This document shows, in pieces, positions 20,231-24,762 of a stretch of 64,000 nt of DNA (its first letter is position 1; each line of letters begins with the position of its first letter). The stretch comes from Sphingomonas sp. Leaf242 (GTDB lineage Bacteria > Pseudomonadota > Alphaproteobacteria > Sphingomonadales > Sphingomonadaceae). The notes beneath the pieces were generated by a model that saw nothing but the letters and a program-made list of their open reading frames with translations, ran no database searches and was not told the DNA's origin. The stretch spans positions 752,972 through 816,971 of the forward strand of contig NZ_LMLW01000001.1 in the NCBI RefSeq assembly GCF_001422045.1, written 5' to 3'. Made by a program: the position numbers and the translations under genes.

Positions 20231-20638
20231 TCAGCCAGCGTACCGCTCGGCCGTCTCCCGGATCAACGCGATCATGTTTGGGATCCCCTGCGTCCGGTTC
20301 GAACTCAACTGCTTGCTCAGATCGAAAGGCGCTAGTTCCGCGGTGATGTCGGTCGCGACGATCTCGCCTGGCGCCTGATCCTGTACCGTCAGCAACACCA
20401 GCGCGATGATCCCCTTGGTGATCGCCGCATTCGAATCCGCGAGAAAGTGGAGCCGGCCATCATCGGTCGTGGTCGGATAGACCCAAACCGACGCCGAACA
20501 CCCGCGCACCAACGTCGCATCGGTCTTGAGCGCATCCGGCATCGCTTCGAGCTCTTTGCCGAGGTCGATCAGCAGGCGGTAGCGGTCGTCGGGTTCGAGG
20601 AAGTCGTATTCCTCGCGAATATCGGTGAGAGTGGCCAT
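20231..20638 (-). CDS. sufE: SufE family cysteine desulfuration protein
   Basis: A 135-residue sulfur acceptor that stimulates the cysteine desulfurase SufS during Fe-S cluster assembly. The active cysteine is C47 in LVRGCSASVWVY. The N-terminal EEYDFLEPDDRYRLLIDLGKEL helix pair and the C-terminal SKQLSSNRTQGIPNMIALI are family-typical. No suf operon genes adjoin it. It is convergent with the ferredoxin-like gene and separated from the psp operon by a family B repeat. Confidence 0.94.
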   Translation of the reverse strand: MATLTDIREEYDFLEPDDRYRLLIDLGKELEAMPDALKTDATLVRGCSASVWVYPTTTDDGRLHFLADSNAAITKGIIALVLLTVQDQAPGEIVATDITAELAPFDLSKQLSSNRTQGIPNMIALIRETAERYAG

Positions 20639-20710: not shown

Positions 20711-20816
20711 TACCACCCCGGCGAAGGCCGGGGTCCAGTTGGGGGACAGCTATGGTGAGGTACGGTAATTTGTTATTACTACCTCTCCAACTGGGCCCCG
20801 GCCTTCGCCGGGGTGG
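20711..20816. repeat. Palindromic repeat family B
   Basis: ACCACCCCGGCGAAGGCCGG (20711-20730) has its complement CCGGCCTTCGCCGGGGTGGT ending at 20816. The centre, rich in A/T, is not conserved. A second copy lies at 34721-34826. It sits between the psp operon end and sufE. Confidence 0.9.
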
Positions 20817-20836
20817 TCGTGTGGTTTTGGCGAGGC

Positions 20837-21076
20837 TTAAAGATCCACCCCGGCAGCGATCGCCTCGAGCTTCTTGATCCGCTCCCTCAAGTCGGCGATC
20901 TCGATCCGCGACCCGGTCGACACCGCGACCGGCATCCGACTGTCTTGTGTATGATCCAACTCCAGCCGCCGCAGCGAGAGCCATCCGCGCCATCCGGCCA
21001 AGCCACCGGCGACGATCATCGCTAGGCCCGCAAGGCTCGCCAGCGCCAGGGTGATGTAGACGTTCGGTTCGATCAT
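20837..21076 (-). CDS. Small PspB-like membrane protein (fourth extra gene of psp operon)
   Basis: 79 residues, not assignable to a named family. One transmembrane helix at about 8-30 (LALASLAGLAMIVAGGLAGW), a basic stretch, and a short C-terminal coiled-coil segment (IADLRERIKKLEAIAAG) that resembles the end of PspB and of its three upstream neighbours, but without the ERI-TD tail. It is the last gene of the pspA-led operon, 9 bp after the preceding gene. An inner-membrane role in envelope stress is inferred from position and topology only. Confidence 0.75.
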   Translation of the reverse strand: MIEPNVYITLALASLAGLAMIVAGGLAGWRGWLSLRRLELDHTQDSRMPVAVSTGSRIEIADLRERIKKLEAIAAGVDL

Positions 21077-21085
21077 GTCCGCCTC

Positions 21086-21328
21086 CTAGCGGTCGCGGAG
21101 CCGCTCGATCTCTCGGTCGAGATCGACGCTCTTGTGGTTGTCGGTGATCACGCGCTCCAACACCTGGATGCGCTCCTTCATCTGCTGCACCTCGTCGCGC
21201 AGCCGCAGCGCATCGACGCTGTCGACCGGGTTCGCCGGGGCGTCGCCCAGCGCGCGGTAGCGAGCGGTCAGCACCTTGGCGACCATCACGATCAGCACGA
21301 TGCAGACGACCATCGAAAAGGGGTTCAT
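21086..21328 (-). CDS. Small PspB-like membrane protein (third extra gene of psp operon)
   Basis: 80 residues. One N-terminal transmembrane helix (MVVCIVLIVMVAKVL), then a coiled coil with the shared motif MKERIQVLERVITDN and the terminal EIERLRDR that also ends the 97-residue neighbour. The same layout, TM followed by R-[IV]-x-V-L-E-R-[IV]-x-x-D, is seen in the two genes before it and loosely in PspB itself. Its ATG overlaps the stop of the preceding gene by 4 bp. The function is unknown; it is probably one of a set of paralogues arisen by tandem duplication. Confidence 0.78.
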   Translation of the reverse strand: MNPFSMVVCIVLIVMVAKVLTARYRALGDAPANPVDSVDALRLRDEVQQMKERIQVLERVITDNHKSVDLDREIERLRDR

Positions 21329-21675
21329 CGTGTCTCTCCTTCGGCGGGGCTCGCGGTGCGGCCCGTCAGCGTAAGCGTTGGCGACGTCTCTAAAGGTCGC
21401 GCTGGGGAGGGTGGATCGGCCCGGAGCCGTTCGATCTCGTCGGCAACGCCGATGCCCCGGTCAGTGACGATCCGTTCCAGTACCCGCACCCGTTGTTCCA
21501 GGCGTTCGGTGTGCGCCGCATATTGCGCGGACTTCTCGGCGGTCTGCGCATTGAGCGCGGTTGCCATGCGCTCCTTGTGCTTGATCCAGTCCTTGAAGAC
21601 GCTGCTGCCGATCCCGAGGATGACTGGCAGGCCGATCACGATGAAGACGAGAAGGAAGATCGTGAAGTTGTTCAT
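21325..21675 (-). CDS. Small PspB-like membrane protein (second extra gene of psp operon)
   Basis: 116 residues. A transmembrane helix at about 4-25 (FTIFLLVFIVIGLPVILGIG) resembles the PspB helix, which also contains FIGLPWVI. A long helix follows, then the motif LEQRVRVLERIVTDRG and DEIERLRADP. A Pro/Thr-rich tail of about 30 residues is extra compared with its neighbours. It overlaps the next gene by 4 bp (ATGA). The likeness to PspB supports an envelope-stress role; the partner is unknown. Confidence 0.8.
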   Translation of the reverse strand: MNNFTIFLLVFIVIGLPVILGIGSSVFKDWIKHKERMATALNAQTAEKSAQYAAHTERLEQRVRVLERIVTDRGIGVADEIERLRADPPSPARPLETSPTLTLTGRTASPAEGETR

Positions 21676-21687
21676 GATCCTTGTCCT

Positions 21688-21981
21688 TCAGCGGTCGCGA
21701 AGGGCTTCGATCTCGCGGGCAGTGCGCTCGGCGGGGTCGGTGGCGATGCGTTCGAGGACTGCGATCCGTTCCTCGAGCCGCGACACCTGCCCGGTCAACC
21801 GCTCGTTCTCGTTGCTGAGCAACAGGACCTTGCGGTCACCGTCGACATCGCCGTCTCGCCCGCGTTTGCGGCTACGCATTTCCGGTTCGAAGCCATGCTT
21901 GGCGCGGATCCAATTGTTCGCAACCCAAGCGACCGGTCCCACCGAAATCGCCACGATCGGTATCATCAAAGCCCAATCCAT
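21688..21981 (-). CDS. Small PspB-like membrane protein (first extra gene of psp operon)
   Basis: 97 residues. An N-terminal transmembrane segment (WALMIPIVAISVGPVAWVANN) is followed by a charged Arg/Asp-rich linker. The coiled coil contains NERLTGQVSRLEERIAVLERI and ends EIEALRDR. The ERIAVLERIATD core is the same as in the two downstream genes and similar to RVMTVERIIAAD of PspB. GGGAGA lies upstream of the ATG. It is placed 27 bp after pspC. It is not a known family by name; it is treated as a diverged PspB paralogue. Confidence 0.8.
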   Translation of the reverse strand: MDWALMIPIVAISVGPVAWVANNWIRAKHGFEPEMRSRKRGRDGDVDGDRKVLLLSNENERLTGQVSRLEERIAVLERIATDPAERTAREIEALRDR

Positions 21982-22008: not shown

Positions 22009-22392
22009 TCAGCGCAGGCTGTCGATCTCTGCCGCGAGGCTGTTGCTGGAGCGGCTGGTATAGTGCGTCTCGATGTCGGCAAGTCGGCGGTCGATGTCGC
22101 GGAACTTGCTGCGGACCTCGGCGGTCGACCGCTTCGGGTTCGAGCGGACACCCTGCCAGAACTTCGCGTCGTCGGGGGTATCGTACAGGCCGATCGGCTT
22201 GGCGTGTCCCATCCATGCGACCATCCAATAGGCTAGCAGCGTCCAGGGAAATCCCCCGGCGAGCGTCAGGACGACCATGCCGACACGGACGAAGAGCGCG
22301 TCGACGCCGGTATAGTCGGCGATCCCGGCGCAGACGCCCTTCCACTTGGCGTTTTGCTTATCGAGATAAAACTGGGTGCGGCTACCGGACAT
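22009..22392 (-). CDS. pspC: Envelope stress response membrane protein PspC
   Basis: 127 residues. The PspC domain is clear: KWKGVCAGIADYTGVDALFVRVGMVVLTLAGGFPWTLLAYWMVAWM, with one strongly hydrophobic segment. In E. coli PspC senses secretin or membrane stress with PspB and releases PspA from PspF. Here the C-terminal extension (about 75-127) forms a predicted coiled coil (RSKFRDIDRRLADIETHY) ending AAEIDSLR, echoing the EIExLRDR tails of the extra small proteins. Only 1 bp separates it from pspB. Confidence 0.92.
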   Translation of the reverse strand: MSGSRTQFYLDKQNAKWKGVCAGIADYTGVDALFVRVGMVVLTLAGGFPWTLLAYWMVAWMGHAKPIGLYDTPDDAKFWQGVRSNPKRSTAEVRSKFRDIDRRLADIETHYTSRSSNSLAAEIDSLR

Positions 22393-22393
22393 G

Positions 22394-22693
22394 TCAGTTT
22401 CTCCGATCGATTGGGCGATCTGGCGTGCGGTCGGACTGGTGGTCCGACAGATACGGCGATTGCGTGGTGCCGAGACCCGGCTTCCAGTCGGGATTGTCGG
22501 CGGCGATGATCCGTTCGACGGTCATCACGCGGTCCTCGAGGCGGCGCGCGAGCGCCTGCATCTCGTCGAGCAGGCGTTCATCCTCTTCGGTGATCCGCGG
22601 CGCCTGCTTCCACTTGGTGATGTAGTGCAGGATCACCCAGGGCAGCCCGATGAAGAGGATGCCGCAGACCAGAACTGGCATGAAATCATCCAT
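22394..22693 (-). CDS. pspB: Envelope stress response membrane protein PspB
   Basis: 99 residues. One N-terminal transmembrane helix (MPVLVCGILFIGLPWVILHYI) followed by the coiled coil LLDEMQALARRLEDRVMTVERI and the DNPDW motif characteristic of PspB. It is longer than the usual 70-75 residues because of a polar tail (about 75-99). Together with PspC it relays membrane stress to PspA/PspF. It sits 1 bp after the pspA stop. Confidence 0.92.
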   Translation of the reverse strand: MDDFMPVLVCGILFIGLPWVILHYITKWKQAPRITEEDERLLDEMQALARRLEDRVMTVERIIAADNPDWKPGLGTTQSPYLSDHQSDRTPDRPIDRRN

Positions 22694-22694
22694 C

Positions 22695-23360
22695 TCAATC
22701 GTCCTTCCTCAGGCGCGCCTTGAGCGCGGCGAGCTGGGCGTCGACCTTGTCGTTGCTGCGCAACTCGGCGATTTCCTCTTCGAGCGTCTTGACGACCCCG
22801 AGCCCCATCGCGTCTGCGCGGCCCTCGGCTTCGTCGACGCGGCGATCGAGGATGTCGAAGCGGCTGAACGCCTCGTGCGTCTTCGGCCCGTTGTACATCT
22901 CGCGCAGCCGGGTGCGGTTGTTCGCGCTCTCGAGCCGGGTCTGCACCGCGTTCTGCTTGGTGCGCGCCTCGCGAAGCTTGGTCTGGAGCTTGGCGATGTC
23001 CTCTTCCGACGCGCGGAGCGCATCGTCGAGCACGCCGACCTCGGCCTTCAACTGCTCGGCCATGTCGAATGCCTTCTGGCGCTCGACCAAGGCTGCCTTG
23101 GCGAGGTCCTCGCGGTCCTTGCTCAGCGCCAGTTCGGCCTTCTCGGTCCAGTTGTCCTGGAGCTGCTCGAGCTTCGAGATGTGGCGGCGCATCTCCTTCT
23201 GGTCGGCGATGGTGCGCGCGGCGGAGGCGCGAACCTCGACCAGCGTTTCCTCCATCTCGAGGATGATCATGCGGATCATCTTCGACGGGTCTTCGGCCTT
23301 CTCGATGAGATCGGCGAAGTTGGCGGCGACGATGTCGCGGGTGCGGGAAAAGATGCCCAT
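22695..23360 (-). CDS. pspA: Phage shock protein A
   Basis: A 221-residue PspA/IM30 (ESCRT-III-like) coiled-coil protein. It starts MGIFSRTRDIVAANFADLIEKAEDPSKMI, the membrane-binding amphipathic helix plus the conserved turn. Long helices follow, and the EMEETLVEVRASAA block is characteristic. It binds damaged inner membrane and, when not bound, inhibits PspF. The ATG at 23360 is chosen to give the conserved N-terminus; the frame extends 12 codons upstream. It is the second gene of the transcript from the sigma-54 promoter, after a 47-residue ORF. Confidence 0.95.
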   Translation of the reverse strand: MGIFSRTRDIVAANFADLIEKAEDPSKMIRMIILEMEETLVEVRASAARTIADQKEMRRHISKLEQLQDNWTEKAELALSKDREDLAKAALVERQKAFDMAEQLKAEVGVLDDALRASEEDIAKLQTKLREARTKQNAVQTRLESANNRTRLREMYNGPKTHEAFSRFDILDRRVDEAEGRADAMGLGVVKTLEEEIAELRSNDKVDAQLAALKARLRKDD

Positions 23361-23408: not shown

Positions 23409-23552
23409 TTATGCCACGATCGAGGTGTGAACCGCGATAGGCGTTGTGGTGGTTGCGATGGCGGGGCCTACTGCGCCGAGGACGCAGGTTGCGCTGACGA
23501 CGATGGTGCAGAGCGTGGCGGCGACGGTGCGGGCGATGGTGGTGTTGAACAT
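23409..23552 (-). CDS. 47-residue secreted or membrane peptide, first gene of the psp operon
   Basis: Starts MFNTTIARTVAATLCTIVVS and continues through a hydrophobic core (CVLGAVGPAIA) to a Thr-rich end, HTSIVA. It looks like a cleavable Sec signal peptide with a short mature part, or a single membrane-spanning peptide. AAGGGG lies 6-9 bases before the ATG. It starts about 47 bases downstream of the predicted sigma-54 transcription start and ends 48 bp before pspA. It has no recognised family. Conservation in relatives would decide whether it is translated and functional. Confidence 0.6.
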   Translation of the reverse strand: MFNTTIARTVAATLCTIVVSATCVLGAVGPAIATTTTPIAVHTSIVA

Positions 23553-23608
23553 GGTGGGTCCCCTTTAAGGATGGTTAGTTCCGCTATTCGGCTGGTTGCC
23601 TGAAGCAT

Positions 23609-23624
23609 TGCATCTGTCGTGCCA
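23609..23624 (-). promoter_or_regulatory. Sigma-54 promoter of the psp operon
   Basis: Read on the minus strand: TGGCACGACAGATGCA. The GG and GC dinucleotides are 10 bases apart as required, and only one core base departs from TGGCAC-N5-TTGCA. It faces the 47-residue ORF and pspA. PspF is a sigma-54 activator encoded divergently next to it, which fits exactly. Upstream activator sites should lie between 23625 and 23724 but were not resolved. Confidence 0.85.
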
Positions 23625-23724
23625 GTTTCGAAAATGGCGGAATTGCAGGGGTTTACGCGATTTTGGCTGTCTGGGCGGTACCGCAAGCTTGCCAAGAGTT
23701 GGGAATTCGCGCCACATCTTCGCC

Positions 23725-24762
23725 ATGGAGCGAACAACCCAGGTCATCGGCGAGTCCGGCACGTTCATGGCGGCGCTCGAACGCGCATCGCGGGCGGCGG
23801 CGTTGGACCGTCCGGTGCTGGTGATCGGCGAGCGCGGGACGGGCAAGGAACTGGTCGCCGAGCGCCTCCACCGCCTGTCGCCGCGGTGGGACCAGCCGCT
23901 GGTGATCATGAACTGCGCGGCGCTGCCCGAGACGCTGATCGAGGCGGAATTGTTCGGACATGAGGCGGGCGCGTTCACCGGCGCGACCAAGGCGCGGGTA
24001 GGGCGGTTCGAGGAGGCCGATGGCGGCACGCTGTTCCTCGACGAACTCGGCACGCTGTCGATGGCGGCGCAGGACCGACTGTTGCGCGCCGTCGAATATG
24101 GCGAGATCACGCGGATCGGCTCGTCGCGGCCGATGCGCGTCGACGTGCGGATCGTGGCCGCGACCAACGAGCATCTCCCCGACAAGGTCGATCGCCATGA
24201 GTTCCGCGCCGATCTGCTCGACCGGTTGTCGTTCGAAGTGGTGACGTTGCCGCCGCTGCGCGCGCGCACCGGAGACGTTGTGGTCCTCGCCGAACATTTC
24301 GGCCGGCGCATGGCGTCGGAGCTGGGGCGCGAGCGCTGGGAAGGCTTCGGCCCGGCGGCGATGGACGCGCTGATCGCGTATCCCTGGCCCGGCAACGTCC
24401 GCGAACTCCGCAACGTCGTAGAGCGCGCGGTGTATCGTTGGGAGCAGGCGGGACCGATCGATGCGATCGAGATCGACCCCTTCCAGTCGCCGCATCGGCC
24501 GGGGGCGTCGACTGCGCCGAAACCTATCGTGGTGACCCCACGCGCGGCCGAGGCAGACGAGGGCGAAGATCCTGTCGTTGCCTGCGAAGAAGGCCCCTCA
24601 GACTTCAAGTCCCGCGTGTCGCGCTTCGAACGCGACCTGCTTTCGCGCGCGCTGTCGGAACACCGCTTCAACCAACGCGCCACAGCTGAAGCACTAGGCC
24701 TCAGCTACGACCAACTCCGTCATGCGCTGAAACGCCACGACCTGCTGAACGTGGGAGGCTGA
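23725..24762 (+). CDS. pspF: Phage shock operon transcriptional activator PspF
   Basis: A sigma-54-dependent AAA+ activator of 345 residues without an N-terminal regulatory domain, as in PspF. Walker A GERGTGKE, the sigma-54-contacting loop GAFTGATK, Walker B GTLFLDEL and the sensor motif [13 protein letters not shown] are present. The C-terminal helix-turn-helix ([19 protein letters not shown]) binds upstream activator sites. In the known system PspA inhibits it directly. The ATG at 23725 places the AAA+ domain at the start. It is divergent from the operon it controls and ends 15 bp before a family A repeat. Confidence 0.95.

Follow-up and report, generated by a model that had tools for sequence, protein, structure and literature searches.

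In Yersinia, once the system is on, PspA is bound by the cytoplasmic C-terminal domain of PspC, and complexes form between Psp proteins and mislocalized secretins (PMC5596341). In E. coli, PspC needs a leucine zipper for its contact with PspA; this zipper has been placed in the putative periplasmic part of the protein, with two topologies under discussion (PMC3068692). PSP genes occur in all Qipengyuania strains studied (PMC9241875), and PspC figures in a table of phage regions (PMC5443232). Multiplied psp genes have been touched on as well: one paper mentions paralogues of PspA and PspC and, in its accessible sections, holds no array of the kind described here (PMC9239133), and a 2024 survey gives one sentence to 'PspB duplicates' in psp operons, with AOL22920.1 as the example (PMC11237479). 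In the passages covered (supplements not included), that survey treats these duplicates without array, types, order, copy number or alleles, and its main text names neither Erythrobacter, Novosphingobium nor Sphingobium. Here we analyse the psp locus in a 64,000-nucleotide (nt) stretch of the genome of Sphingomonas sp. Leaf242 (contig NZ_LMLW01000001.1, positions 752,972 to 816,971; hereafter the window), in which four further small genes, X1 to X4, follow pspC. What is new here is that, in the S. faeni group, the membrane and juxtamembrane halves of X1–X3 are hypervariable and reassorted on coils that are far more constant. We found no description of an ordered array or of such swapping in the literature, a search that left subscription papers, preprints and supplements mostly uncovered and does not show absence from print. 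To our knowledge, the membrane cue sensed by PspB and PspC is still open; AOL22920.1 we take to be an Erythrobacter protein.

The preliminary description of the window reported genes of 97, 116, 80 and 79 residues behind pspC, each with one N-terminal transmembrane (TM) helix and a C-terminal coiled coil. All four are present where it put them, the motifs it quoted occur letter for letter in the X proteins, and an N-terminal hydrophobic segment and a C-terminal helix are predicted in each; the array that it observed is confirmed as real. Our comparison covered the window and 80 further psp loci (27 genomes of the window's genus and 53 genomes from 52 other genera), which were not chosen at random but from genomes with a match to X1 or PspC (for PspC, among the best scores listed); a PspC relative is present in 287 of 298 genomes of the family, the Sphingomonadaceae. 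All but two of the 333 plus-strand open reading frames (ORFs) behind pspC could be assigned to a type: 57 to a, 46 to b, 68 to c, 71 to e and 70 to f, with rarer types g (5) and the short hydrophobic d (11) and h (3). X1, X2, X3 and X4 are of types a, c, e and f. Counted by sensitive search of all six frames, leaving out type d and with four f genes restored that a sufE stop-to-stop frame had set outside the array (L075, L085, L104 and L138), at least one array member is present in 80 of 81 loci and three to five in 65 (no member in 1 locus, 1 in 3, 2 in 5, 3 in 14, 4 in 29, 5 in 22, 6 in 5, 7 in 1 and 8 in 1).

The order of the types is fixed: a precedes b in 34 of 34 cases and e in 53 of 53, b precedes e in 44 of 44, c precedes e in 63 of 63, and e precedes f in 66 of 66. 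Type c shifts its position (behind a in 46 cases and before it in 9; behind b in 29 and before it in 14), and no set position was seen for the five g genes. In 75 of 81 loci the array ends with type f, in 73 sufE lies downstream on the same strand, and the same type order recurs in loci of 53 genera. Operon conservation extends across relatives, with the array between pspC and sufE, and the earlier statement that this is not the textbook pspABC(DE) operon stands: an ordered array behind pspC is conserved across the family. In S. parapaucimobilis (NZ_CP155749), annotated independently, the layout is the same, with four genes from pspC to sufE all called 'hypothetical protein'; the fourth is annotated as 222 amino acids (aa), longer than type f. 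An alignment of type f retrieved at least 479 relatives among at least 594 pattern matches in genome contigs; the best 80 of them are mostly labelled Sphingomonas, with a few labelled Sphingobium, Hephaestia, Stakelama, Sphingomonadales or uncultured and one each labelled Arthrobacter and Microvirga, a list that is no measure of spread, as the query came from the family and ranking is by likeness to it.

Two small additions to the array were also seen. Three loci (L122, L129 and L131) carry an extra hydrophobic gene of 58–63 aa (type h) directly after f, with a 4-nt overlap, and type d (L064, L086, L136 and others) is a membrane peptide of 39–45 aa with an arginine-rich, DRPxRRA-like tail, which precedes e in 11 of 11 ordered cases.

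In its own genome, the likeness among these genes goes beyond chance. When a profile of 37 array members was searched in six frames against the whole genome (4.3 megabases, E-values up to 10), X1–X4 came out on top (E 3e-28 to 1e-7), PspB was fifth (E 0.0025) and three weaker matches followed (E 0.086–0.956). X1–X4 are themselves rows of this profile, which leaves as independent results the fifth place of PspB and the absence of other copies: no further array copy was seen in this six-frame search of the genome. Furthermore, profiles of the single types (E<1e-3), run against all six-frame ORFs of 35 aa or more in the 81 psp loci, returned array ORFs and otherwise only PspB (in 14 loci) and PspC (in 45); at that threshold neither PspB nor PspC of the window itself was matched. 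The charge distribution predicts an N-out/C-in topology for the array proteins, with a mean number of lysines plus arginines, by type, of 0–0.36 before the TM segment and 2.2–4.2 after it. An AlphaFold2 model of the X1 monomer (54 relatives; mean predicted local distance difference test 79.6, predicted template-modelling score 0.36) has two helices, at residues 3–28 and 46–96, with a loose linker between them.

The N-terminal, membrane-spanning halves of X1–X3 (N-modules) behave differently from the rest of the locus in the S. faeni group, by which we mean the window and 14 loci from S. faeni, S. aurantiaca, S. aerolata, S. albertensis and their kin. The 14 relatives are 97–100% identical to the window in PspA, 73–95% in PspB, 81–99% in PspC, 82–96% in X4 and 87–98% in SufE (13 loci). 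For X1 the identity is 63–68% in 11 relatives and 91–100% in the other three; for X3 it is 66–71% in eight, 78% in one and 89–100% in five; X2 was not found in four relatives and is 48–100% identical in ten. At the DNA level, a 100-nt bin in the X1 N-module is 38–59% identical in 10 of the 14 relatives, 67% in one and 84–100% in three. Where a relative has another allele, DNA identity follows a saw-tooth, with 38–69% in the N-terminal parts and mostly 81–99% in the parts coding for the coil (lower in L154 and L162, the alignment of the latter being disturbed by an extra g gene). The N-modules of this group are discrete alleles on nearly constant coils; we assigned them by eye as a1–a5, c1/c2/absent and e1/e2, with c of L158 taken as c1 and e of L154 as e1. 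Median nonsynonymous divergence (dN) was 0.22 for a (105 pairs from 15 loci), 0.225 for c (55 pairs) and 0.223 for e (105 pairs), against 0.035 for f and 0.019 for pspABC (105 pairs). For c, the allele and pairwise comparisons take X2 from an internal methionine in the window, L156 and L157, and for these cover the C-terminal ~80 codons.

Three loci illustrate this. L161, L162 and L077 have a pspABC dN of 0.000, with no amino-acid change in PspA, PspB or PspC over the aligned codons, while dN at a is 0.164 for L161–L162, 0.166 for L161–L077 and 0.055 for L162–L077, and dN at e is 0.319, 0.011 and 0.310 for the same pairs. The opposite pattern was found between the window and L156: synonymous divergence (dS) is 0.01 for X1, 0.11 for X2 (full length; 0.061 over the C-terminal ~80 codons) and 0.00 for X3, against 0.15 for PspA, 0.35 for PspB, 0.37 for PspC and 0.19 for both X4 and SufE. 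Over all pairs, gene dS was more than twice that of pspABC in 55 pairs for a, 16 for e and 11 for f (of 105 each) and in 38 of 55 for c; it was less than a quarter of the pspABC value in 2 pairs for a, 3 for c, 2 for e and none for f; dN/dS of single genes versus the window was below 1. On a tree of the flanking DNA, in which 5 of 12 inner branches are open, the alleles are scattered: 6 changes are required for e (a count equalled or undercut in 460 of 500 shuffles), at least 4 of them forced by well supported branches, 7 for a (103 of 200 shuffles) and 6 for c (25 of 200). Some clustering is seen for absence of c (10 of 500) and for allele a3 (29 of 500). Repeated recombination that exchanges the inner part of the array would produce such a picture. 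Differential loss of numerous ancient paralogues is possible, but it would need many repeats and leaves the near-zero dS unexplained.

To place this variation in a wider frame, we compared 133 close pairs (PspA at least 95% identical) from 55 loci. Pairs in which a type was missing, present twice or without a match to the motif were dropped, leaving 120 for a, 29 for b, 63 for c and 130 for e (within the S. faeni group, c kept 21 of 78); the other start codons were chosen by script, and truncation of some N-modules is possible. N-modules fell below 60% identity in 50 of 120 pairs for a, 17 of 63 for c, 47 of 130 for e and 5 of 29 for b, and C-modules in none. In the same 133 pairs, that level was reached 5 times by the first 40 residues of PspB, 3 times by the PspC domain and never by the TM part of f. 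Most of the pairs with such divergent N-modules belong to the S. faeni group.

How the array proteins relate to PspB and PspC was assessed by profile comparison. The nearest curated NCBIfam models of X1–X3 are those of PspB and PspC, always under the cut-off. X3 gives the best PspB match of the four (TIGR02976 E 2.4e-4, against 3.6e-3 for X2 and 9.5e-3 for X1), scoring 16.0 bits against a Pfam cut-off of 25.6 and 21.3 against an NCBIfam cut-off of 51.7; X1–X3 as a whole score 11.9–16.0 and 16.2–21.3 bits, respectively. X4 has no NCBIfam match at all and no PspB match in Pfam. For some X proteins unrelated Pfam models equal or beat PspB (X1: Ctf8, E 0.0038, versus PspB, E 0.24), the Pfam scan found no PspC domain (PF04024) in X1–X4, and no PspD or PspG model came up in the general Pfam and NCBIfam scans, these two having been given no direct comparison. 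Over the 37 members (E<=0.01), NCBIfam returned the PspC model TIGR02978 for 16, the PspB model for 12, PRK09458 (also PspB) for 7 and other models for 4 or fewer each. Alignment of profiles with hhalign gave 97.8–99.9% among types a, b, c, e and g, and for f 99.5% with e, 97% with a and 92–95% with b and c; reversed decoys reached at most 61.7% over 25 comparisons. With PspB as the query, types a, b, c, e and g scored 74–92% and, in the other direction, mostly 86–92%. With PspC as the query the same five types scored 88–95%, always on the PspC tail, and as queries themselves 84–96% (PspC columns about 85–128). Type f reached 1.5–2.2% with PspB and 1.6–2.3% with the PspC tail, and PspB and PspC only 30–68% with each other. 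On the combined array profile, E. coli PspB scored 25.0 bits, the E. coli PspC tail 8.4 and PspA -5.2, and none of 1000 shuffles equalled the score of either the PspB tail or the PspC tail. Against single-type profiles, the number of shuffles out of 1000 that equalled the E. coli PspB tail was 0 for a, 2 for b, 0 for c, 0 for e, 12 for f and 2 for g; for the PspC tail it was 6 for a and 0 for both b and c. Finally, the codons for the EIxxLR ends of X2, X3 and PspC belong to one short direct-repeat family (19 nt, 79–84% identical to the reference).

These comparisons bear on several earlier claims. Profile comparison suggests similarity to PspB for types a, b, c, e and g, for e in one direction only, and all four X proteins score far below the PspB cut-offs. 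The proposal that X4 is PspB-like is not upheld: its type is close to that of X3 and not to PspB, and on these profiles X4 would be kin to PspB only by transitivity, through the X3 type. The idea that PspC gained its coiled-coil tail is ruled out, as TIGR02978 covers residues 6–124 of 127 (model positions 2–119 of 121), tail included, and E. coli PspC has a like tail. A tree of the types has few columns, is short and poorly resolved, and leaves many forks open. On it PspB forms a separate clade (98/75), with similar genes of other families and classes close to c and e. Of the groups, b (like PspB) is alone in falling wholly to one side of a branch; a requires 2 changes (g lies inside), c 2 (outside genes inside) and e 2 (PspC tails beside some rows), and all 8 groups together need 10 against 59.0 when shuffled.

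Similar genes exist outside the family. Matches were found in 103 of 118 genomes of an order sample (2–9 places in each listed genome of the family, 0–3 in other families), in 16 of 241 of a class sample (more than two matches only in four genomes, all Sphingomonadaceae) and in 38 of 249 of a phylum sample; PspB and PspC may be among the matches counted. Those outside genes that we opened, which come from other Alphaproteobacteria and from the wider phylum, stand alone as small TM genes or in pairs (L145 and L274), and no psp operon was found in the same stretch of 3–7.5 kilobases (kb), L023 excepted. Those of L145, L269–L277, L279 and L280 lie in unrelated neighbourhoods, have LExIVTDxxYxLxxxIxxL-like ends, and match the same profile with E down to 8e-17; they are possibly an undescribed protein family with a coil like the PspC tail. 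In L023 (positions 1–1752), from another family of the order, pspA, pspB and pspC are followed by a second PspC-domain gene and then a single array-like gene. This suggests, without proving it, that the psp operon acquired such a gene, which then multiplied at an early stage of the Sphingomonadaceae. A phage or plasmid origin was considered and rejected, X1 and X3 having no match in the phage records searched and the viral-contig scans no relative with the queries tried; in a plasmid collection one record, an 880-kb replicon of S. parapaucimobilis, holds the whole psp locus.

The window contains a complete psp locus, with pspF divergent on the plus strand and a leader gene, pspA, pspB, pspC, X1–X4 and sufE on the minus strand (Table 1). 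It has the traits of a PspF–sigma54 psp operon: divergent pspF, a -24/-12 promoter, and pspABC followed by the X genes without large gaps. Over the sample, 298 of 328 gene junctions measure at most 60 nt (41 of these are overlaps of 4 or 1 nt), 17 measure 61–100 nt and 13 more than 100 nt; in the window the start of X3 overlaps the stop of X2 by 4 nt. A 700-nt scan detected an upstream -24/-12 element that agrees with the consensus at 10 or more of 12 bases in 76 of 80 loci and in 2 of 80 shuffled sequences, and rpoN is present in the own genome. An earlier 260-nt scan had given at least 10 matches in just 14 of 80 loci (8 in the window); it did poorly because the leader gene sits between promoter and pspA. 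A sigma70 promoter scan gave none, and a terminator scan 3 sites against 2.5 in shuffles. From this layout we infer that X1–X4 are co-transcribed with pspA. Leader-like small ORFs were seen by eye in many of the 80 loci (not counted), NZ_CP155749 has an annotated hypothetical protein in that place, and the first round of a search with the leader gene gave matches, uninspected, in 38 of 81 loci, its later rounds being discarded after drifting into antisense pspF frames. The leader gene may occupy the position of Zymomonas ZMO1062, an equivalence drawn from gene numbers only. ZMO1062 is called pspD and reported as upregulated together with pspABC (PMC8645129); the two Zymomonas papers, in the portions available, speak of ZMO1061–1065 and not of an array (PMC3495753, PMC8645129). 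As for pspF, its true start is probably the ATG at about 23725. The gap between X4 and sufE holds a 31-nt inverted repeat (20712–20817, 97% complementary, 44-nt spacer, core CCCCGGCGAAGGCCGGGG) resembling repetitive extragenic palindromic elements.

Table 1. Features of the psp locus, numbered from the first letter of the window.
Feature	Position	Strand	Description
X1, type a, 97 aa	21688-21981	-	N-terminal TM helix, variable linker, long C-terminal helix ending EIEALRDR
X1 N-module, ~45 residues, border approximate	21847-21981	-	hypervariable; allele a1 of five (S. faeni group)
X2, type c, 116 aa	21325-21675	-	TM helix, coil QRVRVLERIVTD, tail EIERLR plus extension
X2 N-module, border approximate	21547-21675	-	hypervariable; allele c1
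X3, type e, 80 aa	21086-21328	-	TM helix, coil ERIQVLERVITD, tail EIERLRDR
X3 N-module, border approximate	21206-21328	-	hypervariable; e1, one of two main alleles
X4, type f, 79 aa	20837-21076	-	conserved last array gene, ending RIEIADLRERIKKLEAIAAGVDL
pspA	22695-23360	-	TIGR02977 270.7 bits (cut-off 242.95)
pspB	22394-22693	-	PF06667 E 3.8e-24; TIGR02976 77.5 bits (cut-off 51.7)
pspC, canonical C-terminal tail	22009-22392	-	TIGR02978 107.9 bits (cut-off 104)
sufE-like, array boundary and syntenic marker	20231-20638	-	PF02657 E 7.6e-34
pspF, divergent activator	23596-24762	+	TIGR02974 473.9 bits (cut-off 443.55); listed ORF starts TTG
Small leader gene, 47 aa, hydrophobic/signal-like	23409-23552	-	between promoter and pspA
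Sigma54-type -24/-12 element TGGCACGACAGATGCA	23609-23624	-	consensus-base match

The X proteins carry the same kind of coil as the Psp switch and sit in the same operon, and are therefore read most simply as extra inputs or anchors; a constant coil joined to a variable membrane part points to a fixed partner inside the cell and a changing target on the membrane side. In the mechanism that we propose, X1–X4, members of the ordered array in the PspF/sigma54-type psp operon of Sphingomonadaceae, would be single-TM, N-out/C-in adaptors, each coupling a membrane module (TM helix plus linker) with a coiled coil in the cytoplasm that is akin to PspB and the PspC tail. The constant coil would dock on PspA, PspB and the PspC tail, and the membrane modules would determine which disturbance of the membrane, or which protein in it, acts on the switch. 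Array content and alleles would then set the inducer range or the places to which PspA is brought, and X4 (type f), which is conserved and ends nearly every array, would be the partner that does not vary. The ordered array with its swapped membrane ends suggests interchangeable sensors or anchors on one stress switch; the fuller statement, that X1–X4 are interchangeable membrane modules docking by a shared coil on a conserved Psp switch, we give an even chance of being right. Several observations weigh against it. Docking and sensing are what we infer, sensing by analogy with PspB and PspC and from the pattern of variability. A hydrophobic segment of at least 1.6 on the scale used is found in just 65% of type a and two of five g proteins. 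X4 has no direct similarity to PspB or PspC, f against g reaches 62–76% in hhalign, near the decoy level, and type e as the query only 15% with PspB. The E. coli PspC tail is equalled on the e, f and g profiles by 39, 189 and 52 of 1000 shuffles, and in Pfam (E<=0.01) PspB is matched by only 5 of the 37 members, with unrelated coiled-coil models in 1–3 each. Swapping is shown for the S. faeni group and only hinted at elsewhere: in the 55 pairs outside it, N-modules fall below 60% in 3 of 42 for a, 5 of 29 for b, 6 of 42 for c and 3 of 52 for e.

The evidence can be read in other ways. The X proteins may be effectors rather than sensors, additional membrane anchors that assist PspA in coating or stabilising the membrane once the response is induced, their N-modules varying through weak TM constraint, ordinary recombination and differential loss of old paralogues; we hold this possible, though somewhat doubtful. 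Proteins encoded behind a sigma54-type promoter would be produced chiefly once induction has occurred, sequence change is usually tolerated in TM helices, type presence differs among neighbours, and in other groups too the N-modules are the faster part (median identity 0.82–0.89 versus 0.90–0.98 for the coils). However, in the same pairs PspB, PspC and f vary far less in their TM parts, and the S. faeni group has discrete alleles, with very low dS between strains that are not nearest on the flank tree. Another possibility, which we regard as unlikely, is defence: the membrane modules would be in an arms race with membrane-acting proteins of foreign origin (secretins of filamentous phages, holins, bacteriocins and conjugation pores have been considered), and the array would be a swappable recognition cassette on the Psp response. 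Divergent alleles reassorted among strains with near-identical PspA would fit, as would the recent replacement of X1–X3 between the window and L156 or their forebears and the complexes of Psp proteins with secretins in Yersinia (PMC5596341). On the other hand, no phage or plasmid partner is known, no X1 or X3 homologue was found in 50,697 phage records and no array relative in viral contigs with the queries tried, which leaves an arms race with phages without direct support, the variation is strong in one species group only, and single-gene dN/dS against the window stays below 1. Tandem duplication of pspB within this operon, the model of the preliminary description, is retained in part: the X proteins are PspB-related small coiled-coil membrane proteins in a psp operon, they resemble PspB by profile (X3 best), and PspB is the next best match in the own genome. 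As a simple and recent event it is improbable and was rejected as the main model, since the types are old, recurring in order in loci of 53 genera, PspB forms its own clade and outside genes group with c and e on the weakly resolved tree, and the profile comparisons do not favour it. That the X genes are unrelated small coiled-coil membrane genes sharing only composition is very improbable indeed; the motif is short and some Pfam coiled-coil models give sub-threshold matches, and against this stand the hhalign values among a, b, c, e and g, the conserved synteny and the specificity of the matches.

L161, L162 and L077 are natural exchange experiments, in which unchanged PspA, PspB and PspC face different membrane modules on nearly the same coil. 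A block of genes annotated as 'hypothetical protein' in NZ_CP155749 gains a possible meaning. Were the defence reading true, a housekeeping stress response would work as a polymorphic innate-defence sensor, in which interchangeable membrane-sensing modules, recombined and kept diverse by an arms race, feed through PspC-tail-like coils into one switch; this is a tentative idea, to which we assign a low probability. More generally, the array suggests that coiled-coil docking modules form a wider class, borne also by other single-TM proteins, to which the PspC tail belongs. Compared with the known components, the X proteins are predicted to share with PspB one N-terminal TM helix, a cytoplasmic heptad helix with the core RIxxLExI and the neighbourhood of pspC; they differ from it in their C-terminal end, TDxxxxLxxEIxxLR, which is unlike the ending of PspB. 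That end has its likeness in the PspC tail (TIGR02978 model positions about 85–121), and the window's own PspC ends RRLADIETHYTSRSSNSLAAEIDSLR. Altogether, as far as profiles and motifs can tell, the C-terminal tail of the array is at least as similar to the tail of PspC as it is to PspB.

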